This document shows positions 17,116 to 34,187 of a stretch of 64,000 nucleotides of DNA, in pieces (position 1 is the stretch's first letter; every line of letters begins with the position of its first letter). The notes beneath the pieces are model-generated. The model was not told the DNA's origin. It did not search any database and saw only the letters and a program-made list of their open reading frames with translations. The DNA lies in the NCBI RefSeq assembly GCF_001570525.1, contig NZ_BBXC01000007.1, positions 351,085 through 415,084 on the forward strand, written 5' to 3'. The position numbers and the translations under genes were made by a program. The DNA is from Herbidospora sakaeratensis (lineage in GTDB: Bacteria; Actinomycetota; Actinomycetes; Streptosporangiales; Streptosporangiaceae).

Positions 17116-17847
17116 CTAGGGCCGCCGCGCCACGAAGACCAACTCGTGGCCCGGCCGGTCGGGTGCCTCGCGCACCTCGTCGACGACGAGGCCGTGCTCC
17201 CGCAGGTCGCGCTCCACCTCGGCCCGCTCACGGAAGCGGAGCGTCGACTCCGAGACCAGCACCTCCCCGTCGGCGAACACGTGGACGCCCCGGAAGCTCA
17301 CGAACGGCAGGCTGACGCCGGTCAGCTCGGCCCACGTCTCGACCCGGCCGACGCCCGGGAGGTCGGTCACCCGCCGGGTGGTCGCGCGGCTCCACCCCGC
17401 CCAGTCGTCCCACACGCGCCGGGCCGGATCGCGCGTCTCGAAGACGAACCGGCCGCCCGGCGAAAGCGCCGCGTACGCGCCGCGCAGCGTCGTGTGCCAG
17501 TCGTGCGGATCGACGATCGCCTGGGCGGCGTTCCCGGTCATCGTCACCAGGTCGACGCGCATCGGCGGCAGGTCGCCCGCGTCGCCGTCGAGCCAGCGCA
17601 CCCGCTCCGCGCCCGGCTTGCCCCGTGCGACGTCGACCGACGCCCGCGCCGGATCGATCCCGGTGACCGTCAGGCCGCGCGCGGCGAGCAGCAGCGCGAG
17701 CACGCCCGTGCCGCACCCGACGTCGAGCACCGACCGCGCGCCGAACTCCTCCGCCATCGCGACATAGGCGTCGAGGTCGCTGCGGTCGGGGTCGAGCGGA
17801 TCGTAGATCGCGGCCAGCCGCGGATGCCCGTAGTTCGCGTCGTTCAC
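17116..17847 (-). CDS. Class I SAM-dependent methyltransferase
   Basis: A 243-residue protein starting at GTG 17847, overlapping the regulator stop (GTGA). SVLDVGCGTGVLALLLAARG is motif I and VTGIDPARASVDVARGKPG the acidic loop, with MRVDLVTMTGNAAQAI (motif IV) and ALSPGGRFVFETRDP (motif V) following. It resembles small-molecule methyltransferases of the Methyltransf_25 group. It is the last gene of a minus-strand run that starts with two secreted DUF4832 proteins, but nothing links its substrate to sugars, and the link may be only positional. Confidence 0.88.
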   Translation of the reverse strand: MNDANYGHPRLAAIYDPLDPDRSDLDAYVAMAEEFGARSVLDVGCGTGVLALLLAARGLTVTGIDPARASVDVARGKPGAERVRWLDGDAGDLPPMRVDLVTMTGNAAQAIVDPHDWHTTLRGAYAALSPGGRFVFETRDPARRVWDDWAGWSRATTRRVTDLPGVGRVETWAELTGVSLPFVSFRGVHVFADGEVLVSESTLRFRERAEVERDLREHGLVVDEVREAPDRPGHELVFVARRP

Positions 17848-18641
17848 GGGATCAGGTCGATCGTGAGGCCCGCGTCGCGCAGCCCGGCGACGAGCCCGGG
17901 GTCGGCCTCGCGGCCGGTGATCAGGAGGTCGGCCTCCGGCAGGGCGCAGATCGGGGCCAGCCCCGTGCGGCCCAGCTTCGACGAGTCGGCCACGACCACG
18001 TGACGGCGCGCGGCCCCCAGCATGCGGCGCTTCATCTCGGCCTCCAGCAGGTGGACGCCGGTGACGCCCGAGACGGCGTCGACGCCGTGGCAGCCCAGGA
18101 ACAGCGTGTCGGCGTTGATGCGGTCGAGCATCAGCGCGCCCATCGGGTCGACCAGGGCGTGGGTCGACGGGCGCAGCGTGCCGCCGGTGAGCAGCACGGT
18201 GACGCGGGGGATCGCGGGCTCCAGTTCGACCGCCACCCGCAGGCTGTTGGTGAAGACGACGACGTCGGTCAGCTCGGGCCGGGCGACCAGCGCCCGGGCC
18301 AGGAACGTCGTGGTGGTGCCGGCGTCGATCACCAGGCTCTCGCCGCTGACGACGAGGGCGGCGGCGTGGCGGGCCAGACGGGTCTTCTCGACGGCGGCGC
18401 TGCCGAGCGCGACCTCGAACGACGGCTCGGCGGGCCGCGCCGGCCGGGCCGGGATCGCGCCGCCCCGGACGCGGCGCAGCGAGCCCTGCCGGTCGAGCAG
18501 CTCCAGGTCGGCGCGGATGGTCACGCTGGTGACGCCGAACAGCCCGGCCAGGTCGGTCACCCGGACGAACTCGTGCTCCAGCACCATCGAGACGATGCGC
18601 TCCCGGCGGGTGTCCGCGGCGACGTCCGCCACGTCGGTCAT
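17844..18641 (-). CDS. DeoR-family transcriptional regulator
   Basis: A 265-residue protein from ATG 18641, overlapping the GH4 stop by four bases. The N-terminal helix-turn-helix reads RRERIVSMVLEHEFVRVTDLAGLFGVTSVTIRADLELLDRQG, shown here in family order of wing and recognition helix, then RRVRGGAI. The sensor domain has DAGTTTTFLARAL, TNSLRVAVELE and LLTGGTLR, typical of DeoR proteins that sense phosphorylated sugars. Coupling to GH4 suggests it controls this glycoside operon, probably as a repressor lifted by a sugar phosphate. Confidence 0.9.
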   Translation of the reverse strand: MTDVADVAADTRRERIVSMVLEHEFVRVTDLAGLFGVTSVTIRADLELLDRQGSLRRVRGGAIPARPARPAEPSFEVALGSAAVEKTRLARHAAALVVSGESLVIDAGTTTTFLARALVARPELTDVVVFTNSLRVAVELEPAIPRVTVLLTGGTLRPSTHALVDPMGALMLDRINADTLFLGCHGVDAVSGVTGVHLLEAEMKRRMLGAARRHVVVADSSKLGRTGLAPICALPEADLLITGREADPGLVAGLRDAGLTIDLIP

Positions 18642-19933
18642 CGGCGCCCGCCCCGCAGGCCCGGCGGCAGCAGCGCGCCATGGGCGTCGAGCAGTTCGTC
18701 GCACAACTCCTCGATGGCCGCCAGGGGCAGGGCGGCGGAGGTGGCAGGGTCGAGCATCACCGCTTGGTACACCGCCGATCGTCTCTCCTCCAGGGCCGCG
18801 GTCACGGTCAACTCAACCACATTGAGGTAGGTCCGGTTCAACGCCGCCAGCTGGACCGGCAGCGCCCCGATCGGCACCGGCCGCACGCCCGCGCCGTCCA
18901 CGTGCGCGGGCACCTCCACGCACGCCTCCGGCGGCAGGTTGTCGATGAGCCCGTGGTTCGGCAGGGTCAGGTAGACCTCGCGCGGGGTCCCGGTGAGCAT
19001 CGAGTGGATCACCTCCGAGGCCATCTCGAAGTGTTTCCACCGGGCCAGCAGCGGTTCGCCGGAGGCCAGTGAGCCGCGCAGCCGCTCGTAGGAGTCGAGC
19101 TTGCGGGCGCTGCGCCGCAGCGCCTCGTCGACGGGCAGGCCGAGCCGCTTGACCTCGCCGTCGTGCGGGAGGAACCACGGCACGTACTCGGCGGCGTGCT
19201 CGCTCGACTCGGTCGGATAGTGGCCGAAACGGCGGTAGATCTCGCCGCGCACGTCGTGGTCGCCCGCGATCAGGGGGTCGAGGTCGGGGTAGAGCGAGCG
19301 GCCGCCGCTCTCGAAGCGCAACACGAACGCCTGGTGGGTGACCCCGGCCGTACGGAAGTCGATCTCGTCGAGTTCGCGGCCGACCAGGTCGGCCAGCAGG
19401 GCGTGGGTGTCGCGGACGGCGTGGCACAACCCCGCGACGTTGCGCAGCGGGCTGCCCGCGCGCACCGCCCAGCACAACGCGGCCATCGGGTCGGTGTAGG
19501 TGAGCAGCCAGGCGTCCGGGCAGCGCCGGGCCATGTCGGCGGCCAGGCCGAGCATCTCGGGGATGGTGCGCAGCGCGCGGAAGACGCCGCCGACGCCGAT
19601 CGTGTCGCCGAGGGTCTGGCGGAGGCCGTACCGGCGGGGGATCTCGACGTCGCGCAGGAGGGCGTCGTAGCCGCCGACGTCGAACTGGCAGACCACGAAG
19701 TCGGCGCCGTCGAGCAGGGCGGGCCTGGTCAAGGCGGCCTCGACGCGCGCGTGCGCGCCGGTCTCCGCGTTCAGCCGGGACGCCAGCGCCTCGGCGGTCG
19801 CGAGGCGGCCGGGGTCGACGTCGTGCAGGGCGATGTGGAGGGCGCCGGCGAGGTCCGTACCGGAGAACAGATCCGAGAGGATCTTGCGGGTGAGTTCGAC
19901 GTTGCCGGCTCCGGTGATGACGATCTTGGCCAT
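18638..19933 (-). CDS. Glycoside hydrolase family 4 (alpha-galactosidase or alpha-glucosidase type)
   Basis: A 431-residue cytoplasmic enzyme. GH4 enzymes use NAD+ and a divalent metal to cleave glycosides by oxidation, elimination and re-reduction. Seen: VITGAGNVELTRKIL at the NAD site, GDTIGVGGVFRALRTIPEM, GLCHAVRDTHAL with the metal-binding cysteine, and AGVTHQAFVLRF with the metal-binding histidine. Family length is usual. A GH36 alpha-galactosidase in the same locus makes an alpha-galactoside a reasonable guess, but GH4 covers alpha and beta and phosphorylated substrates. ATG follows GGGAGG. It lies behind a hairpin that separates it from the upstream DUF4832 gene. Confidence 0.88.
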   Translation of the reverse strand: MAKIVITGAGNVELTRKILSDLFSGTDLAGALHIALHDVDPGRLATAEALASRLNAETGAHARVEAALTRPALLDGADFVVCQFDVGGYDALLRDVEIPRRYGLRQTLGDTIGVGGVFRALRTIPEMLGLAADMARRCPDAWLLTYTDPMAALCWAVRAGSPLRNVAGLCHAVRDTHALLADLVGRELDEIDFRTAGVTHQAFVLRFESGGRSLYPDLDPLIAGDHDVRGEIYRRFGHYPTESSEHAAEYVPWFLPHDGEVKRLGLPVDEALRRSARKLDSYERLRGSLASGEPLLARWKHFEMASEVIHSMLTGTPREVYLTLPNHGLIDNLPPEACVEVPAHVDGAGVRPVPIGALPVQLAALNRTYLNVVELTVTAALEERRSAVYQAVMLDPATSAALPLAAIEELCDELLDAHGALLPPGLRGGRR

Positions 19934-19951
19934 CCGAAACCTCCCGGAGGA

Positions 19952-19979: not shown

Positions 19980-19985
19980 CCGCTG

Positions 19986-20437
19986 CTATTCGAAGCGGAT
20001 CTCGTCGATGGTGATGGTGGAGTTGCCGCCGTACCAGAAGCCCATGGTCAGCTGGCTGGGGGAGTTGCGGTTGATGCCGTTGGCGGCCATCGGGATGCGG
20101 ATGTCCTGGTAGGCGGTGGTGACGACCGGGTGCGCGCCGCCGTCGAGGGTGTAGTCGGCGAAGAGCTTGGTCGAGCCGCCCAGGCCCAGGTTGAAGTGGG
20201 TCTGCTCGCCGCCGGCCGCGCCCTTGACCCGGATCACCAGGTGGGTCTTGGACGTCAGGTCGACCCCGACGTCGCTGCCGAACCAGCCGCAGTTGTTGTA
20301 GCGCAGGTTCAGCGCGCCGCCGGTGACGACGCCGGAACCGCCGCCGTCGAGGAAGCAGTTCGCGCCGGTCCACTTCCCGAGGTCGTTCTGCGACGGCCAG
20401 GCCGGAGTCCCGTTGTAGTCGTCCAGCACCAGCCCCG
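19986..20437. repeat. Carbohydrate-binding-like module, direct repeat copy 1
   Basis: This stretch codes for the C-terminal module of DUF4832 protein 1 and is nearly identical in DNA and protein to 21998-22447. Both end in GNSTITIDEIRFE and share the NCFLDGGGSGVVTGGAL and TSKTHLVIRVKG blocks. It is a recent duplication or is kept alike by gene conversion. Confidence 0.9.
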
Positions 20438-22001
20438 TGGGACTGGGCGAGGGTGACGGCGAAGGCGAAGGCGAAGGCGATGGTGATGGAGATGGTGATG
20501 GGGATGGAGAAGGACTGGGTGAGGGGGACGGGCAGTTCGGGGCGCACTGGCCGACGGTGAAGGCCGGGGCCAGCACGTTGTAGCCGCCCGCCGCGTGCCA
20601 GGTCCCCGTGTTGGCGAACCTGATCGAGTACTCCGCCCGCGACCGCAGCCCGGCGGCCTGGTCGGGCAGCCACAGGGCCAGCCGGTAGGTCCCGGGCGCC
20701 ACGTTCGACGGCACGGTCACCGTCTGGGTCGCCACGGTGTGCGCGCCGGGCGTCCAGCGGCGCGGGTCGAGGCCGGGCACGGCGAGGTCGTACCGGCGGG
20801 CGCCGTCGTCGAGCACCAGGAAGACCGGGCGCTGCTTCACCGGACCGGCCCACCCGTCGTTGCGCAGGGTGGCGGAGAAGGTCAGCTGCCCGCCGGGCTG
20901 GACCGAGTCGGAGAAGTTCGCGCCGACCAGCCGGAGCCGGTAGCCCATCTTGCGCTTGAGCCGCACGAACGCCGTCTCGGCCGGGTCGTCGCCCGAGGCC
21001 GCCAGGTTGGTGGCCTTCCACTTGTTGGTGTTGACCGCCGCGTAGTCCTCGTTGATCTCGGTGAAGTTGAGCTTGGCCATCTCGGTCTGGACGTTGACCC
21101 CGGCCGCGTCGTTGTAGCCGTCGGAGTTGCAGGTCTCGCCGCCGGTGATGGTGTTGAAGCCGGTGGACGTCATGCGGTCGTACATCCACTGCTTCTTCAC
21201 TTCGATGTCGAACCAGCCCATCCACGAGTTGTTGTCGTAGGTCCCCATGTCGTTGTAGTCGGCCAGGAAGCAGTCGTTGTGGAAGCCGATCCGGTCCTTC
21301 TGCGCCTGGGTGAGCGAGGGCGAGTCGAGCATCTCCTTGATGAAGATCGGATAGCGCATGGCCAGCGGGATCGTGGCCGGGGTGGTCTCCAGGACCCTGG
21401 TGACGATGCGGAGCCGGGTGGCGTACTGGTCCTGGTTGAAGGGGTCGGAGTAGGCGCCCGTGTGCCACTCGCCCCACGCGCCCAGATAGCCGGTCTCCAG
21501 GTGCGCCACCACGTCGGCGTTGGCGGTCAGCACCGCGCCGACCTGCGTGACGTGGCCGAGGATGCGCGCCTCGGGCACGGAGGCCCAGCCGTCCCAGGTG
21601 TAGGCCGGGCGCAGCACGATCTTCAGGCCGGCCGCGCGGACCGCCGCGAGGCCGCTCGCCAGGTTGTCGAGCAGGGCCTGCGGGAGGGTGTCGGTCCCGC
21701 TGTACTTGTCGAGGTGCAGGTAGCTGTGGACGAGGGTGTTGCCGTTCTGCCTCGCCCGGGAGAAGGTGCGGTCGAGCAGGTCGGGGTTGAAGCCGGGGAT
21801 GGTGGCCGCGTTGACGTAGTCGTTGACGGCCGGGTCATTGATGATCTCGTAGCGGTTGTGGTAGCCGCGCTCGGGGTTGGCGATGACGGTGGCGAGGTCG
21901 GCCTGGTAGGTGCGGGTCTGCGCCTCGGCGGTGCCGATGACCAGGCCGGTCACCATCAGGGCCGCCGCCGCGACCACGGCGCTCGTTCTTCTCGGCATCA
22001 T
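19986..22001 (-). CDS. Secreted DUF4874/DUF4832-type protein with Pro-Ser linker and C-terminal carbohydrate-binding-like module
   Basis: A 671-residue exported protein. A signal peptide ends near GTAEA (about 27). Residues 30-330 look like a TIM-barrel glycosidase-type domain with NPERGYHNRYE, HSYLHLDKYSG, LRPAYTWDGW and YLGAWGEWHTGAYSD; residues 330-500 are a beta domain with FVRLKRKMGYRLRL and FRNDGW-type features. A long Pro-Ser repeat then leads to a module of about 145 residues (TGLVLDDYNGTPAWPSQND onward). Characterised enzymes of this family are unknown to me; a glycoside hydrolase is inferred from the fold-like motifs and neighbours. Start overlaps the previous gene. Confidence 0.8.
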   Translation of the reverse strand: MMPRRTSAVVAAAALMVTGLVIGTAEAQTRTYQADLATVIANPERGYHNRYEIINDPAVNDYVNAATIPGFNPDLLDRTFSRARQNGNTLVHSYLHLDKYSGTDTLPQALLDNLASGLAAVRAAGLKIVLRPAYTWDGWASVPEARILGHVTQVGAVLTANADVVAHLETGYLGAWGEWHTGAYSDPFNQDQYATRLRIVTRVLETTPATIPLAMRYPIFIKEMLDSPSLTQAQKDRIGFHNDCFLADYNDMGTYDNNSWMGWFDIEVKKQWMYDRMTSTGFNTITGGETCNSDGYNDAAGVNVQTEMAKLNFTEINEDYAAVNTNKWKATNLAASGDDPAETAFVRLKRKMGYRLRLVGANFSDSVQPGGQLTFSATLRNDGWAGPVKQRPVFLVLDDGARRYDLAVPGLDPRRWTPGAHTVATQTVTVPSNVAPGTYRLALWLPDQAAGLRSRAEYSIRFANTGTWHAAGGYNVLAPAFTVGQCAPNCPSPSPSPSPSPSPSPSPSPSPSPSPSPSPSPTGLVLDDYNGTPAWPSQNDLGKWTGANCFLDGGGSGVVTGGALNLRYNNCGWFGSDVGVDLTSKTHLVIRVKGAAGGEQTHFNLGLGGSTKLFADYTLDGGAHPVVTTAYQDIRIPMAANGINRNSPSQLTMGFWYGGNSTITIDEIRFE
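20438..20530. repeat. Low-complexity Pro-Ser linker coding repeat
   Basis: About 15 repeats of a six-base Pro-Ser unit, seen on the + strand as GGCGAA/GGTGAT/GGGGAT-like hexamers. It codes for a flexible linker that joins the catalytic-like part to the C-terminal module and could vary in length by slippage. Confidence 0.85.
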
Positions 22002-22447
22002 TCGAACCGGATCTCGTCGATGGTGATGGTGGAGTTGCCGCCGTACCAGAAGCCCATGGCGAGCTGGCTGGGGGAGTTGCGGCTGATGCCGTTGGCGGCC
22101 ATCGGGATGCGGATGTCCTGGTAGGCGGTGGTGATCACCGGATGCGCGCCGCCGTCGAGCGTGTAGTCGGCGAACACCTTGGTCGAGCCGCCCAGGCCCA
22201 GGTTGAAGTGGGTCTGCTCGCCGCCGGAGGCGCCCTTGACCCGGATCACCAGGTGGGTCTTGGACGTCAGGTCGACCCCGACGTCACTGCCGAACCAGCC
22301 GCAGTTGTTGTACCGCAGGCTGAGCGCGCCGCCGGTGACGACGCCGGAACCGCCGCCGTCGAGGAAGCAGTTGCCGCCGGTCCACCTGCCCAGGTCGTTC
22401 TGCGAGGGATAGGCGGGCGTGCCGTTGAAGTCGTCGAGCACCAGCCC
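21998..22447. repeat. Carbohydrate-binding-like module, direct repeat copy 2
   Basis: Codes for the C-terminal module of DUF4832 protein 2 and is nearly identical to 19986-20437, with a few substitutions such as LSLRYNN for LNLRYNN and ISRNSPSQLA for INRNSPSQLT. Confidence 0.9.
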
Positions 22448-24340
22448 GGTGGAGGCGCCGGGGTCGGTGACCACGGTGACGGTGTTGCTCACCGGCGACA
22501 GGTTGCCCGCGGCGTCCCGGGCCCTGACCGTGTAGGCGTGGCTCGTGGAGGCGGACAGCCCGCTGTCGGTGTACGTCGTCCCGGTGACGGCGGCGACCTG
22601 CGTGCCGCCCCGGTAGACCTGGTAGCCGGTGACCCCGGTGTTGTCGGTCGCCCCGCTCCACGCCAGCGACACCGACGACGAGGTCTTGCCCGTCGAGGTC
22701 AGCGTGGGCGCGGTCGGCGCGGTGCAGTCGCCGGTGCAGGGCCCGCCGCCGGTGCTGACCGAGCCGAGGTTCACCCAGCCGTCCGAACCCTGGTTGGCGT
22801 TGGCGAACGACAGCGGATAGGGCGGCCGCCACCGGTCGATCGTGAAGTCGGACAACCGGGTCGCGGCCGGCCGGTTGCGCAGCACGGTCTGGGTGACCGC
22901 CTCCAGCGGGTTCCGCACCCGCAGCACCAGCGAGTACGACCCGGCCGGCACCCCCGCCGTGCTGAGGTTGGCGGAGAAGTTCACCGGCCGGCCGAAGTCG
23001 AGGTACTCCGAGGTGTTCCAGTCGGGGAACGCGCGGATCCTGAGCGGCTGCACGGTCCGGATGTCCCAGTCGGTGTCCCACGTCTTCACCACGGCGCCCG
23101 CGCCGTTGCGCAGCCCGAGCACGAACGTCCACGGGTAGTAGAACGGGGCCACCCCGTCGTTCTGGACGGTCACCCCGACCTTGAACGTCGAACCGGCGGA
23201 GGCGTTGAAGTTGGCCTGCGGGATGTGCAGGTTGTAGCCCATCTTGCGGACCCCGGCCGCCACCTTCGGGTCGGTCGGGCTGTAGCCGCCGGCCCCGGTC
23301 TGGTTGATCATCCACGAGATGTGGGTGAGCTCGGTGGCCGCGAGCACGTCGTCGACCTGGCCGCCGCCGGCGGGGTAGTTGGCGTACAGCGAGCCCTGGA
23401 TCTCGGGCCGGGCCTCGCCGCCGATCGACTGCTCGGTCCACCGGTTCTCGGTGCCGGTGTCGAGCATGATCTGGGTGAACGCGTCGTCCCAGCCGTTCAT
23501 CGACCGGGGCAGGGTCATGCTCTTGAGCTGGTTGCCGCGCCACTCCTTGTAGGGCCACGAGTCGTCGTGGAACCCGATGTCGGCCGACTCCGCGCCCGCC
23601 AGGCCGGGGTAGCGCACCTCCAGCTGGAGGTTGTCGAAGGCGGCGTCGTAGGCGTTGATCAGGGTGCGGATCGTGGTGTCGCTCGGCATCAGGTTCGGGT
23701 AGCCGTCGGCGGCGTCGCGGTCGTACGGCCACGTGTGCCACTCGCCCCACAGGCCGACCAGGCCCAGCGACATGAAGCCGGCCCGGGGGTCGTCGTCGTA
23801 GCGGGCCGCGAAGGCGTTGATGAAGCTGATGAACGCGGCGATGACGTCGGGGTCGTCGTAGTCGGGGCTGACGGTGCCCCAGAACCCGTTGGCGCGCAGC
23901 GCCGTCTTGCCGTTGAGGCAGGGCGGGATGCCGTTGCCCGGGTGGGAGCCGGTGCCGCCGGGATACTCGACGTAGAACCGGAAGGCGAGCTGGCGGCCCC
24001 AGACGGCGGCCTCGTCGAGGGCCTTCTCGAAGACCGTCCAGTCGAAGACCGAACAGCTCGACGGGTCCTTCATGACCTCGTTGAGGGCGAAGTAGCTCCA
24101 CAGGACGCCGCCCGGGAACTTCGCTCCGTAGTCGTCGCCGGGGAACAGGTAGGGCGCGAACCCCTTGAGGGGCTGGCCGACCGGCGTGTTGGCGTAGGTG
24201 TAGGTGTGGGTGGTCAGTGCGGTGTCGGGGGCCGGACCGGCGGGCGGCCGGGGCGGCGGACCGGCCGCGGCCTCGGCGGGGAGGGCCTGGCCCAGGAGCA
24301 GGGTCGTGAGGGCGGTCAGGGCGGCGAGCCAACGCTTCAT
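21998..24340 (-). CDS. Secreted DUF4832-type protein with fibronectin III domain and C-terminal carbohydrate-binding-like module
   Basis: A 780-residue exported protein from ATG 24340 behind GAGGC; GTG 24358 is an in-frame alternative. A signal peptide ends around PAEAAA (25). The TIM-barrel-like part has PLKGFAPYLFPGDDYG, LAFRFYVEYPGG, VSPDYDDPDVIAAF and GLVGLWGEWHTWPYDRD. A beta domain with FANANQGSDGW follows, then a fibronectin III domain (TAPTAPTLTSTGKTSSSV to VTVVTD), then the same C-terminal module as protein 1. GEWHTWP and SPDYDDP are shared with the third member at 27389. It is the first gene of the minus-strand operon. Likely a polysaccharide-degrading or -binding enzyme; activity unknown. 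Confidence 0.8.
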   Translation of the reverse strand: MKRWLAALTALTTLLLGQALPAEAAAGPPPRPPAGPAPDTALTTHTYTYANTPVGQPLKGFAPYLFPGDDYGAKFPGGVLWSYFALNEVMKDPSSCSVFDWTVFEKALDEAAVWGRQLAFRFYVEYPGGTGSHPGNGIPPCLNGKTALRANGFWGTVSPDYDDPDVIAAFISFINAFAARYDDDPRAGFMSLGLVGLWGEWHTWPYDRDAADGYPNLMPSDTTIRTLINAYDAAFDNLQLEVRYPGLAGAESADIGFHDDSWPYKEWRGNQLKSMTLPRSMNGWDDAFTQIMLDTGTENRWTEQSIGGEARPEIQGSLYANYPAGGGQVDDVLAATELTHISWMINQTGAGGYSPTDPKVAAGVRKMGYNLHIPQANFNASAGSTFKVGVTVQNDGVAPFYYPWTFVLGLRNGAGAVVKTWDTDWDIRTVQPLRIRAFPDWNTSEYLDFGRPVNFSANLSTAGVPAGSYSLVLRVRNPLEAVTQTVLRNRPAATRLSDFTIDRWRPPYPLSFANANQGSDGWVNLGSVSTGGGPCTGDCTAPTAPTLTSTGKTSSSVSLAWSGATDNTGVTGYQVYRGGTQVAAVTGTTYTDSGLSASTSHAYTVRARDAAGNLSPVSNTVTVVTDPGASTGLVLDDFNGTPAYPSQNDLGRWTGGNCFLDGGGSGVVTGGALSLRYNNCGWFGSDVGVDLTSKTHLVIRVKGASGGEQTHFNLGLGGSTKVFADYTLDGGAHPVITTAYQDIRIPMAANGISRNSPSQLAMGFWYGGNSTITIDEIRFE

Positions 24341-24416
24341 GGGGGCCTCGGTTTTCACATCGAAACCTGGACGTAACGAATTACAAACAGGAATCTTCGC
24401 TTTCGCAACCCTCCGT

Positions 24417-24473
24417 GAGGTACTTATGATTAGCTCTTGACAAATTTTCGCTAGCCTACATCATTACTTCCGG
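24417..24473. promoter_or_regulatory. Conserved divergent regulatory element, copy A
   Basis: The sequence has GAGGTACTTATGA, then TTGACAAATTTTCG with -35-like TTGACA at 24437-24442, then ACATCATTA. The same blocks with the same spacing occur at 28721-28771. The element lies between the DUF4832 operon (-) and the permease operon (+). The -35 box fits the permease gene; the -10 box is not clear. TTGACAA reads TTGTCAA on the other strand, so it could serve both directions. I infer a shared operator-promoter of one regulon, perhaps read by the ROK or DeoR protein. Confidence 0.7.
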
Positions 24474-26249: not shown

Positions 26250-27379
26250 CGCAGTGTCGCGGCGTCGAGGGGCGGCACGTCGAACGGCGTGCCGCCGTCG
26301 CGCAGCGACAGGGTGGCCAGGTAGCCGGCCGCGACGCTCATCCGGGCCGCCACCGGCGAGGTGTCGGTGGGGCCGCCGTGCCGGGCGAACCGGAGGAACT
26401 CCTCCATGATCGCCTCGTCGGCGCCGCCGTGCCCGCCGGTCGCCGCCGGCACCCGGTACGTGTGGTCGGGTTCGCGGCAGGCCGACTGCCCGCTGTTCCA
26501 GACCTGCACGACCGAGCCGGGGCCGTCGCCGAGGTTCTCCAGGCGGCCGTGCGTGCCGATGACGGTGTAGTTGCGCCAGTAGTCGGGGCTGAAGTGGCAC
26601 TGCTGGTAGGCGGCGATGACGCCGTTGTCGAGGCGCATGTTCATGACCGACACGTCCTCGACGTCGATGAGGTGGTGCAGGCCCGTCGACGCCGACGGCG
26701 GCCAGGGCCACTCGCGCAGCCAGCCCTCGGCCGGGGGTGTGCCCGGCGGGCGGCGGTCGAGGTTCCCGTACATCATGAGATCGCCGAAGGCGCTGACCCG
26801 TTCGGTGTAGCCGCCGGCCAGCCAGTGGATCACGTCGAGGTCGTGGGCGGCCTTCTGCAGCAGCAGGCCCGTGGTGCGGCGGCGGTCGGCGTGCCAGTCC
26901 TTGAAGTAGTACTCGCCGCCGCGCCCGACGAAGTGGCGCACCCAGATCGTCTTCGGCTCGCCGATCTCCCCGCGCGCGATGACCTCGCGCATCAGCCGGA
27001 CCACGCCCATGTGCCGCATGTTGTGGCCCAGGTAGAGGCGGGTGCCGGTATCGGCGGCCGTGCGCAGGACCTCGTCGCAGTCGGCGATCGTGATGGCGAG
27101 CGGTTTCTCCAGGTAGACGGCCTTGCCCACGCGCAGCGCCGCGATGGCGATCTCGGCGTGGGTGTCGTCGGGGGTGGCGACGAGCACGGCGTCGACCCCG
27201 TCGTCGTCCAGCAGGTCGCGGTAGTCGGTGAAGGCGCGCTCGGCGGGCAGCCGGGTCAGCGCGGCCGGGTCGGTGTCGCACACGGCGGTGATCCGGCACC
27301 CCCGGCCCGGGCGGTGGGCGGTCGCGGCGAGGGTCGAGCGTTGTCCGGCGCCGATCACGCCCAGGCGGAGGTCGTGCAT
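26219..27379 (-). CDS. Gfo/Idh/MocA-family NAD(P)-dependent oxidoreductase
   Basis: A 386-residue cytoplasmic dehydrogenase from ATG 27379. The N-terminal Rossmann motif is LGVIGAGQRSTLAA, with AVLVATPDDTH and the family-defining YLEKPLAIT further on. The C-terminal alpha/beta domain has HDLDVIHWLAGG, likely carrying the catalytic histidine. Members oxidise or rearrange sugars and inositols; some, such as GH109-type relatives, cleave N-acetylgalactosamine by an NAD-dependent route. It is co-oriented with and just downstream of the third DUF4832 gene, suggesting that it processes the released sugar. Substrate unknown. Confidence 0.9.
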   Translation of the reverse strand: MHDLRLGVIGAGQRSTLAATAHRPGRGCRITAVCDTDPAALTRLPAERAFTDYRDLLDDDGVDAVLVATPDDTHAEIAIAALRVGKAVYLEKPLAITIADCDEVLRTAADTGTRLYLGHNMRHMGVVRLMREVIARGEIGEPKTIWVRHFVGRGGEYYFKDWHADRRRTTGLLLQKAAHDLDVIHWLAGGYTERVSAFGDLMMYGNLDRRPPGTPPAEGWLREWPWPPSASTGLHHLIDVEDVSVMNMRLDNGVIAAYQQCHFSPDYWRNYTVIGTHGRLENLGDGPGSVVQVWNSGQSACREPDHTYRVPAATGGHGGADEAIMEEFLRFARHGGPTDTSPVAARMSVAAGYLATLSLRDGGTPFDVPPLDAATLRYFMPEKLSD

Positions 27380-27388: not shown

Positions 27389-28708
27389 TTAGTGCGTTCG
27401 GCCGAGGGTGAGCCAGCCGGTCAGTGTGCTGTCCTGGCCGGCGTTGGCGAAGCGTAGCGGCACGCCGTTCCTGAGCGGGTTGGCGACCCGCATGACCAGC
27501 GTGTGGTCGCCCTTCTTCAGCCCGGGGAGCCGGGTGCTCAGCTCGACCGGCGCGCCGGGCAGCACGCGGGTCAGCTTCCAGGACGTCGTCCACGTCCGGG
27601 CGATCCGGCCGTTCCGGACGGCGGCCACCTCGACCGGCCAGTCGTAGGCGAACGGGGCGACCCCGTCGTTCTGGATCTGTACGGCCACCTCGGAGCTCCC
27701 GATCCGCGCCCTGGTGACCCGCAACGAGTAGCCGAGCGATTTGGCGGCGGCCAGCGCGGTGTCGTAGGCCGCGCCGGTGTATCCCGGGCTGAAGGCGTAG
27801 TGGTTGAGCAGCCACGTCGCGTGGGTCTGCGCCACGCTCCCGGCGAAGTCGCCCTCGCAGCCGCCCGAGAACAGGCAGCCCTGCAGCTCGGGCCGCAGTT
27901 CGCCGGCGACCGTGTTGGTCTTCCACTTGTCGGCCGTCCCGGCCTGGTTCATCAGGTCCATGAAGTGCCAGCCCGGGCCGGGCAGCGTCGAGAAGACGAA
28001 CGAGTCGTCGTGGTAGCCCAGGTCGAGGGCCGCGTTGTCGGCGCTCGGGTAACGCACCATCAGGCGGGTCTCGTCGAAGGCCGCGTCGTAGGCGCGCAGC
28101 ACCCGCTGCTGCTGCGCCGGGGAGGCGAACCAGTTCTCGGTGCCCGGGTCGCCGTTGTGCGGCCAGGTGTGCCACTCGCCCCAGAAGCCCAGCAGGCCGA
28201 GCTGGACGAAGCCGATCCGGGGGTCGCCGTCGTAGCGGCGGCCGAGCGCGGCGATGAACGCGTCGAGCGCGGCGGCCAGGCGCGGGTCGTCGTAGTCGGG
28301 CGACACGCTCAGGCCGTCGTTGCCGAAGTCGTCGTACGGCCGGGTGAGCAGTCCCTGGTCGATCAGGAACCGCGGGATGCCGCTCGGCCGGGCGGGATAG
28401 TCGAGGTAGAAGCGGAACGCGGTCTGGTGTCCACGGGCCGCGATGGCGTCGAGCCCCTCCTCCAGGGCCCGCCAGTCGAACCGGTGCGGGCCGGTCATCA
28501 CGGCGTTGAGCGGCAGGTAGAACCACTCCATCGAGTGCGGGAACGTCGCGTAGGCGTCGGCGTACGGGATGAAGCCCTTGAGGGGGTTGGCGGCGGGTTC
28601 CTGGCCGGCGGCGAGCGGCCGCCAGCCGGGGTGGGCCTGGGCCGGTGCGGTCAGCAGCACGGCCGTGATCAGCGCGGCCATGAGAATCCGGGCAGGTCGG
28701 GGGACCAT
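27389..28708 (-). CDS. Secreted DUF4832-type protein without accessory modules
   Basis: A 439-residue protein; start ATG 28708 sits six bases after GGAGG, and the longer upstream frame is antisense to the binding-protein promoter. The signal peptide ends near PAQAHPGW. The TIM-barrel-like part matches protein 2: PLKGFIPYADAY, TAFRFYLDYPAR, VSPDYDDPRLAAAL and LLGFWGEWHTWPHNGDP. The beta domain ends with RFANAGQDSTLTGWLTLG. It has no linker or binding module, unlike the members at 19986 and 21998. It is transcribed from shared element B and followed by the Gfo/Idh/MocA gene. Confidence 0.8.
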   Translation of the reverse strand: MVPRPARILMAALITAVLLTAPAQAHPGWRPLAAGQEPAANPLKGFIPYADAYATFPHSMEWFYLPLNAVMTGPHRFDWRALEEGLDAIAARGHQTAFRFYLDYPARPSGIPRFLIDQGLLTRPYDDFGNDGLSVSPDYDDPRLAAALDAFIAALGRRYDGDPRIGFVQLGLLGFWGEWHTWPHNGDPGTENWFASPAQQQRVLRAYDAAFDETRLMVRYPSADNAALDLGYHDDSFVFSTLPGPGWHFMDLMNQAGTADKWKTNTVAGELRPELQGCLFSGGCEGDFAGSVAQTHATWLLNHYAFSPGYTGAAYDTALAAAKSLGYSLRVTRARIGSSEVAVQIQNDGVAPFAYDWPVEVAAVRNGRIARTWTTSWKLTRVLPGAPVELSTRLPGLKKGDHTLVMRVANPLRNGVPLRFANAGQDSTLTGWLTLGRTH

Positions 28709-28720
28709 CGGGCCTCCAGC

Positions 28721-28775
28721 GAGGTACTTATGAGCCAGCCTTGACAAATTTTCGATGAGCCACATCATTATTCGG
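28721..28775. promoter_or_regulatory. Conserved divergent regulatory element, copy B
   Basis: GAGGTACTTATGA at 28721-28733, TTGACAAATTTTCG at 28741-28754 and ACATCATTA close behind match copy A block by block. It lies between DUF4832 gene 3 (-) and the binding-protein gene (+). The 5' block is only 12 bases from the minus-strand start codon, overlapping the space before its ribosome site, so binding there would affect that gene directly. Confidence 0.7.
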
Positions 28776-28844
28776 GAGAGCCACCAAGGCAAGAGGGAAC
28801 TTTTCTGGCCCCTCGGCCACATCCCCCCAGGAAGAGGTACCTCG

Positions 28845-30197
28845 ATGATCGACAGGAAGCGGGTCGGCGCGGCCCTGCTGTGCGGGTTGCTGGCGCTCAC
28901 CGGCTGCGGCGGCGCCGACGAGGAGCCGGGGAACGGCGGCGGCCAGGTCACCCTCGACTACTGGCTCTGGGACGACAACCAGCAGGCCAGCTACCAGGCC
29001 TGCGCCGACGCCTTCGCCGCCGCCAACCCCGGCATCACCGTGAAGATCACCCAGACGGCCTGGGCGCAGTACTGGCAGAACCTGACCACCCAGCTCGCCG
29101 CCGGCGACGCCCCCGACGTCTGGACCAACCAGGTCTCCTACTACCCGCAGTTCGTCACCAGCCAGCAGATCCTCGACATCCAGCCCTACGTCGAGGCCGA
29201 CAAGGTCGACCTCAGCCAGTACCAGGACGGCCTCGCCGACCTCTGGACCAAGGACGGCAAACGCTACGGCCTGCCCAAGGACTGGGACACCGAGGCGGTC
29301 GTCTACAACAGCGACCTGCTCGCCAAGGCCGGCGTCGACCCCGCCGAACTGGCGAACCTCACCTGGAACCCGCAGGACGGCGGCACGTTCGAGCAGGTCA
29401 TCGCCAAGCTGACGGTCGACTCCAAGGGCCGCAATGGCCTCGACCCCGCCTTCGACAAGGACGACGTCGCCGTCTACGGCTACCAGCCGGAGTGGAACGA
29501 CGGCTCCCAGGGCCAGAACGGCTGGGGCGAGCTCGCCGCCGCCAACGGGTTCGTCTACCTCGACAAGAACCCATGGGGCACCCAGTACAAGTACGACGAC
29601 CCCAAGCTGATCGAGACCATCGGCTGGTACAAGGCGCTGACCGACAAGGGCTTCGCGCCGAGGTTCGACAAGCAGTCGACGCTCGGCATCGACGCCGTGA
29701 TGAACTCCGGCAAGGCCGCGCTGACGATCGCCGGCTCCTGGACGATCAACACCTACCTCGGCGAGGGCGCCCAGCAGAAGTTCGCGCTCGCCCCGCTCCC
29801 GGTCGGCCCGACGGGCACCCGCAAGAGCGCCATCAACGGCCTCTCGGACGCGATCTGGGCCGGCACCGAGAACAAGGACGCCGCCTGGAAGTGGGTGAAG
29901 TACCTCGGCTCGGCCGAGTGCCAGAACACGGTCGGCGACAACGCCGTGGTCTTCCCCGCCATCAAGAGCGCCACCGACCGCGCGCTGGCCGCCCACCAGG
30001 CCAAGGGCCGCGACGTGCAGGTGTACGTCGACTACACCACGACCCCCGGCGGCACCTTCCTGCTCCCGATCACCGACCACGGCACCGAGATCAGCCAGAT
30101 CGTGCAGGACGCCCTGCAGTCGGTGATCCTCGGCCAGATCAGCCCCGCCGACGCCCTGACCAAGGCGAACCAGCAGGTCAACGCCCTGTTCGTCTGA
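28845..30197 (+). CDS. Extracellular sugar-binding lipoprotein of an ABC importer
   Basis: A 450-residue lipoprotein from ATG 28845 behind AGGAAGAGG. The lipobox is LALTGCGG with the acylated cysteine near residue 20. The mature part is typical of family 1 sugar-binding proteins: LDYWLWDDNQQASYQ, GDAPDVWTNQVSYYPQF, YGLPKDWDTEAVVYN and GKAALTIAGSWTINTYLG. It should deliver an oligosaccharide to the permeases at 24486 and 25386. It shares regulatory element type with them and is followed by the GH36 gene, so imported substrate is probably an alpha-galactoside (inference). Confidence 0.93.
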   Translation: MIDRKRVGAALLCGLLALTGCGGADEEPGNGGGQVTLDYWLWDDNQQASYQACADAFAAANPGITVKITQTAWAQYWQNLTTQLAAGDAPDVWTNQVSYYPQFVTSQQILDIQPYVEADKVDLSQYQDGLADLWTKDGKRYGLPKDWDTEAVVYNSDLLAKAGVDPAELANLTWNPQDGGTFEQVIAKLTVDSKGRNGLDPAFDKDDVAVYGYQPEWNDGSQGQNGWGELAAANGFVYLDKNPWGTQYKYDDPKLIETIGWYKALTDKGFAPRFDKQSTLGIDAVMNSGKAALTIAGSWTINTYLGEGAQQKFALAPLPVGPTGTRKSAINGLSDAIWAGTENKDAAWKWVKYLGSAECQNTVGDNAVVFPAIKSATDRALAAHQAKGRDVQVYVDYTTTPGGTFLLPITDHGTEISQIVQDALQSVILGQISPADALTKANQQVNALFV

Positions 30198-30231: not shown

Positions 30232-30257
30232 CCCGTCATCCCGTCTTGAGGAGAGCC

Positions 30258-31742
30258 ATGCCCCTGCTCGTCGACCTGTCCGGCCGGGTCTTCGCGGTCG
30301 AACCGACCGGACCGGCCCCCGTCGAGCCCGTCGCCGGCGGCCTGATCCTGCCGCCCGGCCGGGTGGCGGTCCTGCACGGTCTCGGCGACGCCCTGTTCTA
30401 CCGGCACGGCCAGAACTCGTGGAGCCCCTGCGGCTGGCGCCGCCTCAGCGAACCCCCGCTGCGCATCGCCAACCCCGAACGCCGCCTGACCGCCGACGAC
30501 ACCGTCTGGGACGACCCGTCCCGCCACCACTCCTCGGCCGTGGCCGCCCTCCAGGGGCCTGACGGGAACGTGCTCCTGCTGGGCGCGCTCGGCCTGGGCA
30601 CCCCCCGGCTGAGCGCCGACCACGACACCCTCGCGGGGTGGTGCGAGGAGGACGGCGCGCCGTGGTTCCTGGCGTACGGCCCCGAGCGGGAGGTCTTCGC
30701 CTCCTACACCCGGGAACTGGCCGCGCGGCTGGGCAGCAGCGACCGGCGGGCGGGCAACGTCTGGTGCACCTGGTACGCCTACTACGAGGGCATCACCGAG
30801 GAGCAACTCGGCAAGGACCTGGCCGGGCTGGCCGGGCTGCCCTACGACGTCGTCCAGGTCGACGACGGGTGGCAGCGGATCGTGGGGGACTGGGAGCCCA
30901 ACGACAAGTTCCCCTCGGGCATGGCCGCGCTGGCCGGGCGGATCGGCGCGGCGGGCATGCGGCCGGGGCTCTGGCTGGCGCCGTTCATCGTGCTGCCCGG
31001 GGCCGAGCCCGACCCGGAGTTCCTGCTCCGCGACGCGGCGGGGAACCCGGTCGAGGCCGGGCACAACTGGGGGGCCGCCTACTGGGCGCTCGACCTCACC
31101 CACCCCGGCGTGCAGGAGCATCTCCGGGGCCTGATCCACCGGGTGGTGCACGAGTGGGGCTTCACCTATCTGAAGCTCGACTTCGTCAACGCGGGGGCGG
31201 TCCCGGGGGTGCGGCACTCGGGGGCGGCGCGGGAGCAGGCGTACCGCGACGGGCTCCGGCTGATCCGCGAGGCGGCCGGGCCCGAGGTCTACCTGCTCGG
31301 CAGCGGCGGCCTGCTGCTGCCCTCGCTTGGGCTGGTCGACGGCATGCGCAGCGGCCCCGACGTCGCCCCGATGTGGGCCAACTACGCCACCGACGATCCC
31401 TCGGACGCGATGGCCTACAACGCCGTCGTGAACTCCCTCCACCGGTTGTGGCACGCGCCGCTGCTCCAGGTGGACCCCGACGTCGTCTACTTCCGCAGCC
31501 GGTTGAACCTGCTCACCGACGCCCAGATGGCCTGGTTGCAGGACCTCGCCGCGATCTGCGGCTTCCGGGCGGTCTCCGACCCGCCCTCGTGGCTCAGCCC
31601 GGCGGAGCTGGAGCGCCTGCGCGCCTATCTGACCGACCGGCCGGAGATCGTCCAGGGCGGCCGTTACCGCTTCACCGTCGACGGCCGCGAGGTCGACTTC
31701 ACCGGCGCGCTGAGCCCCGGCCAGCAGTACCCGATCTCGTGA
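30258..31742 (+). CDS. Glycoside hydrolase family 36/clan D alpha-galactosidase
   Basis: A 494-residue protein from ATG 30258 behind GAGGAG. No signal peptide, so it acts in the cytoplasm on imported sugar. Clan D motifs are clear: YDVVQVDDGWQ, GLWLAPFIVLPG, YLKLDFVNAG with the nucleophile aspartate, and GMRSGPDVAP with the acid/base aspartate. It is shorter than the classical 700-residue GH36 enzymes and lacks a full C-terminal beta domain. An alpha-galactosidase or alpha-N-acetylgalactosaminidase is the best guess. It follows the binding-protein gene, and the ROK regulator comes next. Confidence 0.88.
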   Translation: MPLLVDLSGRVFAVEPTGPAPVEPVAGGLILPPGRVAVLHGLGDALFYRHGQNSWSPCGWRRLSEPPLRIANPERRLTADDTVWDDPSRHHSSAVAALQGPDGNVLLLGALGLGTPRLSADHDTLAGWCEEDGAPWFLAYGPEREVFASYTRELAARLGSSDRRAGNVWCTWYAYYEGITEEQLGKDLAGLAGLPYDVVQVDDGWQRIVGDWEPNDKFPSGMAALAGRIGAAGMRPGLWLAPFIVLPGAEPDPEFLLRDAAGNPVEAGHNWGAAYWALDLTHPGVQEHLRGLIHRVVHEWGFTYLKLDFVNAGAVPGVRHSGAAREQAYRDGLRLIREAAGPEVYLLGSGGLLLPSLGLVDGMRSGPDVAPMWANYATDDPSDAMAYNAVVNSLHRLWHAPLLQVDPDVVYFRSRLNLLTDAQMAWLQDLAAICGFRAVSDPPSWLSPAELERLRAYLTDRPEIVQGGRYRFTVDGREVDFTGALSPGQQYPIS

Positions 31743-31754
31743 GGGGACCGGTAG

Positions 31755-31779
31755 AATTACGCTTTCTCAAAGCATAATT
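31755..31779. promoter_or_regulatory. Near-perfect palindromic operator ahead of the ROK gene
   Basis: AATTACGCTTT at 31755-31765, CTC, then AAAGCATAATT at 31769-31779: 11-base arms with a single mismatch. This AT-rich site stands out in very GC-rich DNA, begins 33 bases before the ROK start and suggests autoregulation. Confidence 0.7.
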
Positions 31780-31787
31780 AGGGGGCA

Positions 31788-32942
31788 ATGGTGGTGGACC
31801 CGGCCGGAGCCGACGTCAGCAGGCTCCGCGAGCTCAACTCGCTGAGCATCGTCCGGGCGATGCGGGGCCAGCCGCCCGCCACCGTCACCGAACTGGCCGG
31901 CCGCACCGGCCTGTCGCGGCCGGGCACCGACGTCGTCGTGCGCGGCCTGGTGACCGACGGGTGGGTGCAGGTCGTCGAGCCCGACGGCAGCACCGTCGGC
32001 CGCCCGGCCCGCCGCTACCGCTTCAACGCCGGCGCCGGTCACGTCTTCGGGGTCGACATCGGGGCGCACAAGATACTGGTGCTGCTGTCGAACCTCGAAG
32101 GGGAGGTGCTGCTCAGCCGCCGCCTGCCGGTCGACCCCGGCGCCGGACCGGCCGAGCGGCTCGCGGCCCTCGACGCCGCCCTCGACGGCTGCCTGACCGA
32201 GGCCGGGCTCGAACCCGACCGGATCTGGGCCATCACGGTGGGGGTGACCGGCCCGGTCGACGCCTCGGGCCGGACCTCCCTGTTCACGCCGCTGCCCGGC
32301 TGGTCGAGCGTCTCCCCGGCCGACCACCTCGCGGCCCGGTTCGGCTGCCCGATCTCGGTCGAGAACGACTGCAAGCTGGCCGCCGTGGCCGAACGCTGGC
32401 AGGGCGCCGCCCAGGACGCCGACGACATCGTCTACCTGCTGGCGGGCATGCGCATCGGCGCCGGCCTCATCATCGACGGCACCCTGCGGCGGGGCTACGG
32501 GGGCGCCGCCGGTGAGATCGGCGCGCTCAAGGCGCTCCGCTGGTTGTCGGCCCCCGCCCGGCTGGAGAACTATCCCGGCATGCCCGCCGACGTCCATCCC
32601 GACGACCGGGCGGCGTGGGTCTTCGAACGCGCCCGCGAGGGCGACCGCGAGGCCCGGACCGCGCTGCGGCGCTACGCGAAAGACCTCGCGGTCGGCGCGG
32701 CGGCGCTGGTGCTGACGCTCGACCCGCAGGTCGTGGTGCTCGGCGGCGGCTACTCGCGGTCGGCCGACCTGATCATCGACCCGCTGGTCGACGAACTGGA
32801 GCGGCTCGTCCTGCGGGTGCCGGAGGTCCGGGCGTCGAGCCTGGGCGCCGACAGCGTGGCGCTCGGGGCGCTGCGGCTCGCGCTCGACCAGATCGACGCC
32901 CAGCTGTTCGCCGACGGCATGCCCGCGCCGCTTAAAACGTGA
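31788..32942 (+). CDS. ROK-family transcriptional regulator
   Basis: A 384-residue protein with ATG 31788 after GGGGG. The winged helix covers residues 10-75 (RLRELNSLSIVRAMRG, TVTELAGRTGLSRPGTDVVV). The ROK sugar-sensing domain begins with GHVFGVDIGAHKILVLL and has WAITVGVTGPVD, SVENDCKLAA and GMRIGAGLIIDGTLRRGYGGAAGEIG. The usual zinc site (a GEIGH...CxCGxxGC pattern) is missing: after GEIG comes ALKALRWL. It probably represses the surrounding sugar genes and itself. The missing metal site suggests a structurally altered sensor. Confidence 0.9.
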   Translation: MVVDPAGADVSRLRELNSLSIVRAMRGQPPATVTELAGRTGLSRPGTDVVVRGLVTDGWVQVVEPDGSTVGRPARRYRFNAGAGHVFGVDIGAHKILVLLSNLEGEVLLSRRLPVDPGAGPAERLAALDAALDGCLTEAGLEPDRIWAITVGVTGPVDASGRTSLFTPLPGWSSVSPADHLAARFGCPISVENDCKLAAVAERWQGAAQDADDIVYLLAGMRIGAGLIIDGTLRRGYGGAAGEIGALKALRWLSAPARLENYPGMPADVHPDDRAAWVFERAREGDREARTALRRYAKDLAVGAAALVLTLDPQVVVLGGGYSRSADLIIDPLVDELERLVLRVPEVRASSLGADSVALGALRLALDQIDAQLFADGMPAPLKT

Positions 32943-32971
32943 CAAGCCCCCATCCGCGACGTTGACGACCT

Positions 32972-32993
32972 CTGACGGCTGCTTTAGCGTCAG
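32972..32993. terminator. Short hairpin CTGACG-N10-CGTCAG after the ROK gene
   Basis: Six-base arms at 32972-32977 and 32988-32993. It could be an operator as well as a weak terminator; no T-run follows it directly. Confidence 0.3.
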
Positions 32994-32999
32994 GCGGAT

Positions 33000-33011
33000 T
33001 GAAACGTTTTT
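33000..33011 (+). promoter_or_regulatory. LacI-type half-palindrome TGAAACGTTTTT before the isomerase gene
   Basis: The core AAACGTTT is palindromic and resembles the central part of LacI-family operators such as TGAAACGTTTCA. It lies just upstream of the L-rhamnose isomerase start. No LacI gene is in the window. Confidence 0.35.
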
Positions 33012-33029
33012 GCGGTGAGGTGGTCGACA

Positions 33030-34187
33030 GTGGTGACGGCTGGGGTGACGGCCGGGTTGCGGGCGCTGCGCATCGAGACGCCTTCCTGGGCCTACGGGAA
33101 CTCGGGCACCCGGTTCAAGGTCTTCACGCGCGAGGGGGTGCCCCGCGACCCCTACGAGAAGATCGCCGACGCCGCCCAGGTCCACCGCTTCACCGGCGCC
33201 GCGCCGACCGTCGCCCTGCACATCCCGTGGGACCGGGTGGCCGACTACCGCGACCTGGCCGAACACGCCCGCGCCGGCGGGGTGGCGATCGGGGCGATCA
33301 ACAGCAACGTCTTCCAGGACGACGACTACATGCTCGGCAGCGTCACCAACCCCGACCCGGCGATCCGCCGCAAGGCGCTCGGCCACCTGCTGGAGTGCGT
33401 CGACGTCATGGACGCCACCGGCTCGGAGGTGCTGAAACTCTGGTTCTCCGACGGCACCAACTACCCGGGGCAGGACGACATCCGGGCCCGGCAGGACCGG
33501 CTGGCCGAGGCCCTCGACGCCGTCTACGCCCGGCTCGGCGACCACCAGCGGCTGGTGCTGGAGTACAAGCTGTTCGAACCGGCCTTCTACGCCACCGACG
33601 TGCCCGACTGGGGCACCGCCTACGCCCACTGCCTGCGGCTCGGGCCGAAGGCGAAGGTGGTCGTCGACACCGGCCACCACGCGCCCGGCGTCAACATCGA
33701 GTTCATCGTGGCGTTCCTGCTGCGGGAGGGGAAGCTGGGCGGGTTCGACCTCAACTCCCGCTTCTACGCCGACGACGACCTGATGGCCGGCGCGGCCGAC
33801 CCGTTCCAGCTCTTCCGGATCATGTACGAGGTGGTGCGCGGCGGCGGTCTCGACGGCGGCGTGGCGTTCATGCTCGACCAGTGCCACAACATCGAGCCGA
33901 AGATCCCGGGCCAGATCAGGTCGGTGATGAACGTCCAGGAGGCGGCGGCCAAGGCGCTGCTCGTCGACCGCGACGCGCTGGCGCGGGCGCAGCGCGCGGG
34001 TGACGTGCTCGGGGCCAGCGGGGTGTTCATGGACGCGTACAACACCGACGTGCGCCCGCTGCTGGCCGCCCTCCGCGAGGAGGAGGGCCTGGCCCCCGAC
34101 CCCATGGCCGCCTACGCCGCCTCTGGCTACGGCGAGCGCATCGCGGCCGACCGGATCGGGGGGCGGCAGGCCGGCTGGGGAGCCTGA
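33030..34187 (+). CDS. rhaI: L-rhamnose isomerase, TIM-barrel type
   Basis: About 385 residues; GTG 33030 behind GTGAGGTGG is preferred, GTG 33015 being an alternative. Motifs follow the RhaI family of rhizobia and actinomycetes: IETPSWAYGNSGTRFKVF, RDPYEKIADAAQVHRFTG, LHIPWD, LKLWFSDGTNYPGQDD, VLEYKLFEPAFY, VVVDTGHHAPG and FMLDQCHNIEPKIPGQI. Metal-binding acidic and histidine residues lie in these blocks. It interconverts L-rhamnose and L-rhamnulose and often acts on other sugars. No rhamnulose kinase or aldolase is nearby, so it may serve the neighbouring glycan locus or work with distant genes. Confidence 0.85.
   Translation: MVTAGVTAGLRALRIETPSWAYGNSGTRFKVFTREGVPRDPYEKIADAAQVHRFTGAAPTVALHIPWDRVADYRDLAEHARAGGVAIGAINSNVFQDDDYMLGSVTNPDPAIRRKALGHLLECVDVMDATGSEVLKLWFSDGTNYPGQDDIRARQDRLAEALDAVYARLGDHQRLVLEYKLFEPAFYATDVPDWGTAYAHCLRLGPKAKVVVDTGHHAPGVNIEFIVAFLLREGKLGGFDLNSRFYADDDLMAGAADPFQLFRIMYEVVRGGGLDGGVAFMLDQCHNIEPKIPGQIRSVMNVQEAAAKALLVDRDALARAQRAGDVLGASGVFMDAYNTDVRPLLAALREEEGLAPDPMAAYAASGYGERIAADRIGGRQAGWGA

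Follow-up and report, generated by a model that had tools for sequence, protein, structure and literature searches.

A conserved locus of DUF4832-type proteins, a sugar importer and alpha-galactosidases in Herbidospora sakaeratensis with a proposed role in the utilisation of an alpha-linked galactose-type polymer

The window analyzed was a 64,000 nucleotide stretch of the Herbidospora sakaeratensis genome (contig NZ_BBXC01000007.1, positions 351,085 to 415,084). It contains a locus encoding three DUF4832-type proteins, named here P-A, P-B and P-C, together with an ATP-binding cassette (ABC) importer, glycosidases of glycoside hydrolase (GH) families GH36 and GH4, and two regulators. The locus was interpreted, with a probability of about 0.6, as serving the utilisation of a polymer of alpha-linked galactose type, for which galactosaminogalactan of fungi or a comparable biofilm polymer is the most likely candidate.

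Gene content of the locus

The genome has a high GC content and a size of 8.6 Mb. The closest named relatives of the window were Herbidospora species, with P-B domains 95-97% identical. The gene inventory was based on gene calls, reading frames and Pfam, with 20 window proteins included in the Pfam scans. An original prediction, made on the letters of the DNA, had placed three secreted proteins in a setting of GH4, GH36, a sugar importer, a Gfo/Idh/MocA enzyme and two regulators, and gene calls and Pfam recovered every one of these neighbors, the regulators being of the DeoR and ROK families. The features are listed in Table 1.

Table 1. Features of the locus with window coordinates
Feature	Coordinates	Strand	Comment
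DeoR-family regulator	17844..18704	-	Accessory; closest NCBIfam model AgaR, 174.8 bits, under the cut-off of 260
GH4	18638..19933	-	Accessory; closest alpha-galactosidase subfamily model NF011657, 466 bits, just under the cut-off of 486
P-A (671 amino acids)	19986..22001	-	Signal-peptide-like start, DUF4874-DUF4832, Ser-Pro linker, C-terminal binding-like module
C-terminal carbohydrate-binding-like module of P-A	19989..20426	-	93% identity to P-B module
P-B (786 amino acids)	21998..24358	-	Signal-peptide-like start, DUF4832 (E206, D266, E315), fn3, C-terminal binding-like module
C-terminal module of P-B	22001..22438	-	Modeled as jelly roll near CBM30/CBM8
Promoter/operator-like element, copy 1	24417..24466	+	Upstream of permease genes
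ABC importer permease 1	24486..25373	+	
ABC importer permease 2	25386..26249	+	
Gfo/Idh/MocA oxidoreductase	26219..27379	-	Accessory
P-C (520 amino acids)	27389..28951	-	DUF4832-like, without extra modules
Promoter/operator-like element, copy 2	28721..28770	+	Upstream of binding protein gene
Sugar-binding lipoprotein of importer	28755..30197	+	
GH36-type alpha-galactosidase	30246..31742	+	Core
ROK-family regulator	31788..32942	+	Core

Signal-peptide-like starts were present in P-A, P-B, P-C and the binding lipoprotein, in line with the secretion first proposed for the three DUF4832-type proteins, while no signal peptide was seen in GH36 or GH4; both statements are readings of the translations by eye and not by a predictor. 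P-A (2.6e-51, 174.9 bits) and P-B (3.6e-9, 37.1 bits) matched PF16116 (DUF4832) above its curated cut-off of 29.2 bits. P-C, which had been counted as a third DUF4832-type protein, fell below it (1.5e-4, 22.0 bits) and is called DUF4832-like because it is related through P-B, to which it was 44% identical over 377 residues. At E ≤ 0.001 no PF16116 match other than these three proteins was found across the genome. The motifs first ascribed to all three proteins were shared in part. GEWHTWP and SPDYDDP were present only in P-B and P-C; P-A contained GEWHTGAYSDP in place of GEWHTWP and had no SPDYDDP. The NP-x-(K/R)-G site was NPERG in P-A and NPLKG in P-C but QPLKG in P-B. The C-terminal module described as duplicated was a single copy in each of P-A and P-B, the two copies being 93% identical, and its proposed carbohydrate-binding character agreed with the modeled fold (Table 1).

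Sequence searches of solved structures gave no match for P-C and weak matches only for P-A, of which the best and most others lay in the Ser-Pro linker. No relatives of P-C were found in the viral contigs searched. Relatives of the three proteins are referred to as A-type, B-type and C-type. In a quick tree the B-type proteins formed a clean group (87/87), the smallest group with all C-type proteins also contained the B-type proteins, and A-type proteins were not separated under the rooting used; A-type and C-type are names by best match and not tree groups. The GH36 gene product was homologous to solved members of its family, matching 6lcj over query residues 27-486 (1.4e-108) and PF02065 with 36.5 bits, above the cut-off of 27. 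Judged from a signal-peptide-like stretch, translation of P-C probably begins at an ATG near 28708, and the lipoprotein signal places the true start of the binding lipoprotein probably at 28845. Between GH36 and ROK (31743-31787) an inverted-repeat-like stretch was seen by eye, possibly an operator or terminator.

Conservation of the gene set and its upstream element

Named genomes were scanned with an alignment of DUF4832, which gave at least 516 confirmed relatives; the best 80 of these were kept as 78 loci. By title 66 of these were actinobacterial; 50 with full flanks were counted and 16 with shorter DNA were left out. Partner genes were counted by tblastn at more than 60 bits. As the hosts are often related and the loci were the best-scoring, the counts lack independence and do not represent a random sample. 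Conservation of the gene set reaches far beyond the genus Herbidospora. Importer permeases 1 and 2 were each present in 48/50 loci, GH36 in 48, the sugar-binding protein in 47 and the ROK regulator in 42. GH4 (16/50), DeoR (14/50), Gfo/Idh/MocA (14/50) and the A-type protein (18/50) were less frequent. C-type proteins were present in 28/50; a raw-hit count of 50/50 was discarded as B-type domains cross-hit. The smallest recurring form consisted of one B-type protein, importer, GH36 and ROK. Importer and GH36 accompanied the B-type protein in 47/50 loci, supporting the import and intracellular alpha-galactosidase step that had been predicted. In the class as a whole the proteins are rare: P-C-like proteins were found in 6/296 genomes and PF16116 in 9/197.

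Two copies of an element, GAGGTACTTATGA-N7-TTGACAAATTTTCG-N6-YACATCATTA, lie ahead of the two importer gene sets. In 100 shuffles the expectation for two equally spaced copies in the locus was 0, and no further site in the genome matched the 30-base core even when 3 mismatches were allowed. The pattern was derived from the two window copies, whose match is descriptive, and the remaining loci are the test. TTGACAAA occurred 56 times across the 50 loci compared to 2.8 expected from base composition. It was located 400 bp or less upstream of an importer gene, on the strand of that gene, in 44/50 loci; four had an importer without it and two had no importer. From this shared promoter-like sequence we infer co-regulation of the locus genes. 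A Gram-positive glycan utilisation locus is marked by linked and co-regulated genes for a secreted hydrolase, an ABC importer, an intracellular glycosidase and a regulator. All were found here, with hydrolase activity taken from homology and co-regulation from the promoter-like sequence.

Sixteen gene clusters without a window homologue recurred in at least three loci. Fifteen were scanned, with one member each; the sole glycoside hydrolase was GH31, three clusters had no Pfam match, and no mannanase, pectinase or rhamnogalacturonan enzyme was present among the fifteen. An Amidohydro_2 protein stands beside the system in three actinobacterial loci (L035 16380-17420, L036 and L084) and also in a Microbulbifer locus (L059 2576-3706).

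The range first proposed for the system, 17116 to 34187, enclosed the core locus but its two end genes were rejected as members. Position 17116 is the stop end of the frame of a methyltransferase with a homologue in 1/78 loci (L030). The L-rhamnose isomerase gene RhaI (33015-34187; TIGR02635, 620 bits, cut-off 531) directly follows the ROK gene and had a homologue in 1/50 full-flank loci, again L030, a Herbidospora, although in many loci just a few kb of DNA extend beyond the ROK gene.

Variant loci gave further partners. In Paenibacillus a GH31 alpha-galactosidase, with 8j53 as nearest structure, replaced GH36 in 7/8 loci. A homologue of the GH31 alpha-galactosidases 8j50-8j53 thus fills the alpha-galactosidase slot of this locus form, whereas these enzymes have no counterpart among the scanned window genes, which include GH36 and GH4. 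In L105 (9836-16237) and its relatives in L099-L106, B-type and C-type DUF4832 stand in one frame of more than 2000 residues; the L105 frame has S-layer domains. The fused frame suggests that B-type and C-type proteins share their target polymer. A lower-GC locus of Microbulbifer litoralis encodes a protein with 77% identity to P-B together with GH114, GH27, another GH36, AgaR, an AgaS-type isomerase, AgaZ and a BadF-type kinase. Among 274 Gammaproteobacteria genomes P-B relatives were found in the Microbulbifer genome only, and the locus therefore looks like an isolated acquisition. DUF4832 was present in 24/398 Bacilli genomes, and four new neighborhoods were inspected (L182-L185). L183 (798-10247) is a pel cluster with CotH, VTC, DUF4956 and DUF4832. 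By comparison with the window L182 and L184 had neither importer nor alpha-galactosidase, and L185 had an importer and a Gfo-type gene, yet a remote DUF4832.

Predicted fold and relation to known hydrolases

One DUF4832 domain, that of P-B, was modeled. It was predicted with confidence (predicted local distance difference test score of 95) as a TIM barrel, bearing out the fold type expected for it, and the nearest fold was GH14 beta-amylase. The Foldseek template modeling scores being low (0.16-0.36 by query length, among the matches listed), the comparison with GH14 was taken from a VIA alignment. Identity to GH14 was about 10%, and no GH14 match was found in Pfam scans of P-A, P-B and P-C at E ≤ 0.001. 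In the model Glu206 lies at strand 4 and Glu315 at strand 7 of the barrel. In enzymes of clan GH-A and of GH14 these two strands bear the acid pair. The model supports the GEWH glutamate as a candidate catalytic residue and predicts a Glu/Glu acid pair in the DUF4832-type proteins of the window. E206, D266 and E315 were invariant in 85/85 DUF4832 domains, remote ones included, but the genome-scan pattern contains E206 and H208, so that for these two the scan itself accounts in part for the invariance seen in B-type hits. The pattern contains neither D266 nor E315, and A-type, C-type and L183-L185 proteins were not picked by it.

The original prediction knew no defined activity for the family, and this did not hold. 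SIR_1591, a DUF4832 protein of Streptococcus intermedius, dispersed aggregates that depend on Pel with an efficiency close to that of the Pel hydrolase PelAh, and the Pel of this species is rich in N-acetylgalactosamine (GalNAc) (PMC12345266). Pel clusters with DUF4832 genes and an accessory set of CotH, polyphosphate polymerase and DUF4956 have been described (PMC7112168), and L183 matches this published streptococcal and clostridial set. Homology to a SIR_1591-type protein was tested with the L183 protein in place of SIR_1591. It was homologous to P-B (1e-24) and P-A (3e-14) at about 25% identity and kept the three acidic residues E, D and E. SIR_1591 and the window proteins have in common the Pfam family, a TIM barrel with a beta-sandwich and an extracellular location, predicted for the window proteins. 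SIR_1591 differs in its place in a polymer-making pel cluster and its predicted transmembrane helix, while P-A and P-B have binding modules with importer and alpha-galactosidases nearby. The 20 window proteins scanned include no PelG, DUF3492, CotH, VTC or DUF4956, and the locus is not a pel cluster on this evidence.

GH114 enzymes cleave alpha-1,4-galactosamine polymers (PMC12054363). The endo-galactosaminidases of GH114 (Ega3), GH135 (Sph3), GH166 (PelAh) and GH191 (PMC12054363) share the TIM barrel and likely a similar polymer type with the window proteins, but have a reported Asp/Glu pair in contrast to the predicted Glu/Glu pair of DUF4832. No match to GH114 (PF03537) was found in P-A, P-B or P-C.

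Proposed polymer and alternatives

The proposed system would work as follows. P-A, P-B and P-C, two of them with a binding module, would cut the polymer chain extracellularly through the acid pair of barrel strands 4 and 7, and each paralogue probably favors its own stretches of the chain. The dedicated ABC importer, with its private promoter, would take up the oligosaccharides, and the GH36 and GH4 alpha-galactosidases would free galactose inside the cell. The ROK regulator, joined by DeoR in the window, would control the gene set. The direct basis is homology, architecture, conserved neighborhood and residues, fold prediction and the shared promoter-like sequence; from these we infer that the three proteins are hydrolases, which polymer and linkage they attack and how the genes are regulated.

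Galactosaminogalactan consists of alpha-1,4-linked galactose, GalNAc and galactosamine (PMC8647848). It was chosen as the target because it fits three lines of evidence, namely the Pel-active SIR_1591, the alternative alpha-galactosidases and the galactosamine genes of Microbulbifer. In the second line, the GH31 enzymes of the 8j5x structures reportedly prefer alpha-1,4-galactobiose. A bolder reading, rated a little less likely than not, is that DUF4832 is a glycoside hydrolase family, GH14-like in its Glu/Glu pair and alpha-1,4 specificity, acting on galacto-configured chains, and that soil actinobacteria catabolize fungal galactosaminogalactan through this locus, other alpha-galactosidases taking part in its Paenibacillus and Microbulbifer forms. 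If so, fungal and bacterial biofilm polymers would be tied to a dedicated bacterial diet. Galactosaminogalactan and Pel hold mold and bacterial biofilms together, and to our knowledge few enzyme families cut them. If the window proteins cut them, soil actinobacteria would be a source of new biofilm-degrading enzymes, DUF4832 would gain a testable function, and bacteria would be seen to feed on the polymer sheath of fungi. No catabolic locus with DUF4832 is described in the available parts of the open-licence literature on DUF4832.

Several results weigh against the proposed role. The window's genome had no GH114 match and only a 22.9-bit match to AgaS, so a route for GalNAc or galactosamine is not visible and galactose release alone is accounted for. 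With galactose as the only visible chemistry, the polymer may be the galactose-rich fraction of galactosaminogalactan or another alpha-galactan. In 48 genomes (the window's own and those of 47 of the 78 loci) AgaS-family matches exceeded 390 bits in 7 and the curated cut-off in one, not the window's. GH114 was present in 33/48 of these compared to 61/197 class genomes, and was set aside as weak due to the high background and confounding by taxonomy and genome size. The closest structural match, GH14, acts on glucan, and part of the E206 invariance comes from the scan itself. A direct link of a B-type protein to galactosamine genes was found in one locus only, that of Microbulbifer, where GH36 tied between alpha-galactosidase and A-antigen galactosaminidase and may be a plain alpha-galactosidase. 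Enzyme activity in the actinobacterial loci is a prediction, and the papers seen report no assay for any of these enzymes. DUF4832 genes without importer or GH36 in the sequenced flanks examined were found in L057, L060, L047 and L049, although the species of L047 also has a complete locus (L061). In L016 (11251-12714) a C-type protein likewise had no importer or GH36 homologues nearby. In L020 (9731-11053) a C-type or remote DUF4832, without such homologues near, stands among genes that by eye resemble sugar-nucleotide and glycosyltransferase genes.

The best surviving alternative, considered unlikely, is a polysaccharide of plants or algae that bears alpha-galactosyl branches, such as galactomannan or pectic side chains, with the DUF4832 proteins cutting the backbone. 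GH36 and GH4 alpha-galactosidases generally serve plant alpha-galactosides too, and many host genomes are soil actinobacteria by title. A DUF4874-DUF4832-dockerin protein is reported, as part of a cellulosome, from a rumen lignocellulose consortium (PMC7480376). Against this, the effect measured for a relative, SIR_1591, is on Pel, GH114 and Aga genes stand in the foreign locus that is most informative, and the fifteen recurring neighbor clusters scanned had GH31 as their only glycoside hydrolase, so that galactomannan, pectin, rhamnogalacturonan and arabinogalactan, the substrates first named, found no positive support. An alpha-galactosyl or galactosaminyl polymer was favored because the Microbulbifer and Paenibacillus loci point there, and plant substrates are less likely than alpha-1,4 polymers of galactose and galactosamine. 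The original prediction was in this way partly confirmed in its observations and partly supported in its interpretation.

Trimming or release of the cell's own exopolysaccharide, as by the hydrolases of Pel biosynthesis operons, is markedly less probable. DUF4832 is present in Pel clusters (PMC7112168 and L183) and in a Klebsiella polysaccharide cluster (PMC6258164), but the window proteins scanned include neither a polysaccharide synthase nor an export protein, and importer and GH36 accompany the B-type protein almost throughout. The family is wider than this system, as it occurs without the gene set and in the rumen cellulosome and Klebsiella cluster. Slightly less probable again is that the proteins are GH14-like hydrolases of alpha-1,4-glucan and the alpha-galactosidases serve another substrate; the nearest fold is GH14, but the identity of about 10%, the lack of a Pfam GH14 match in the three proteins and the company of alpha-galactosidase-type glycosidases from GH36, GH4, GH27 and GH31 argue otherwise. 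That the proteins are non-catalytic and capture sugars for the importer is the least probable. Two of the three have binding-like modules and catalysis of all three is predicted, but the invariant acidic residues (E206 partly by scan construction), the two glutamates modeled at strands 4 and 7 and a family member reported as an active hydrolase (PMC12345266) speak for catalysis.

Outside the locus, window positions 36938-40070 encode a GH25 lysozyme and an adjoining protein, both with FG-GAP repeat C-terminal regions that are very alike by eye.

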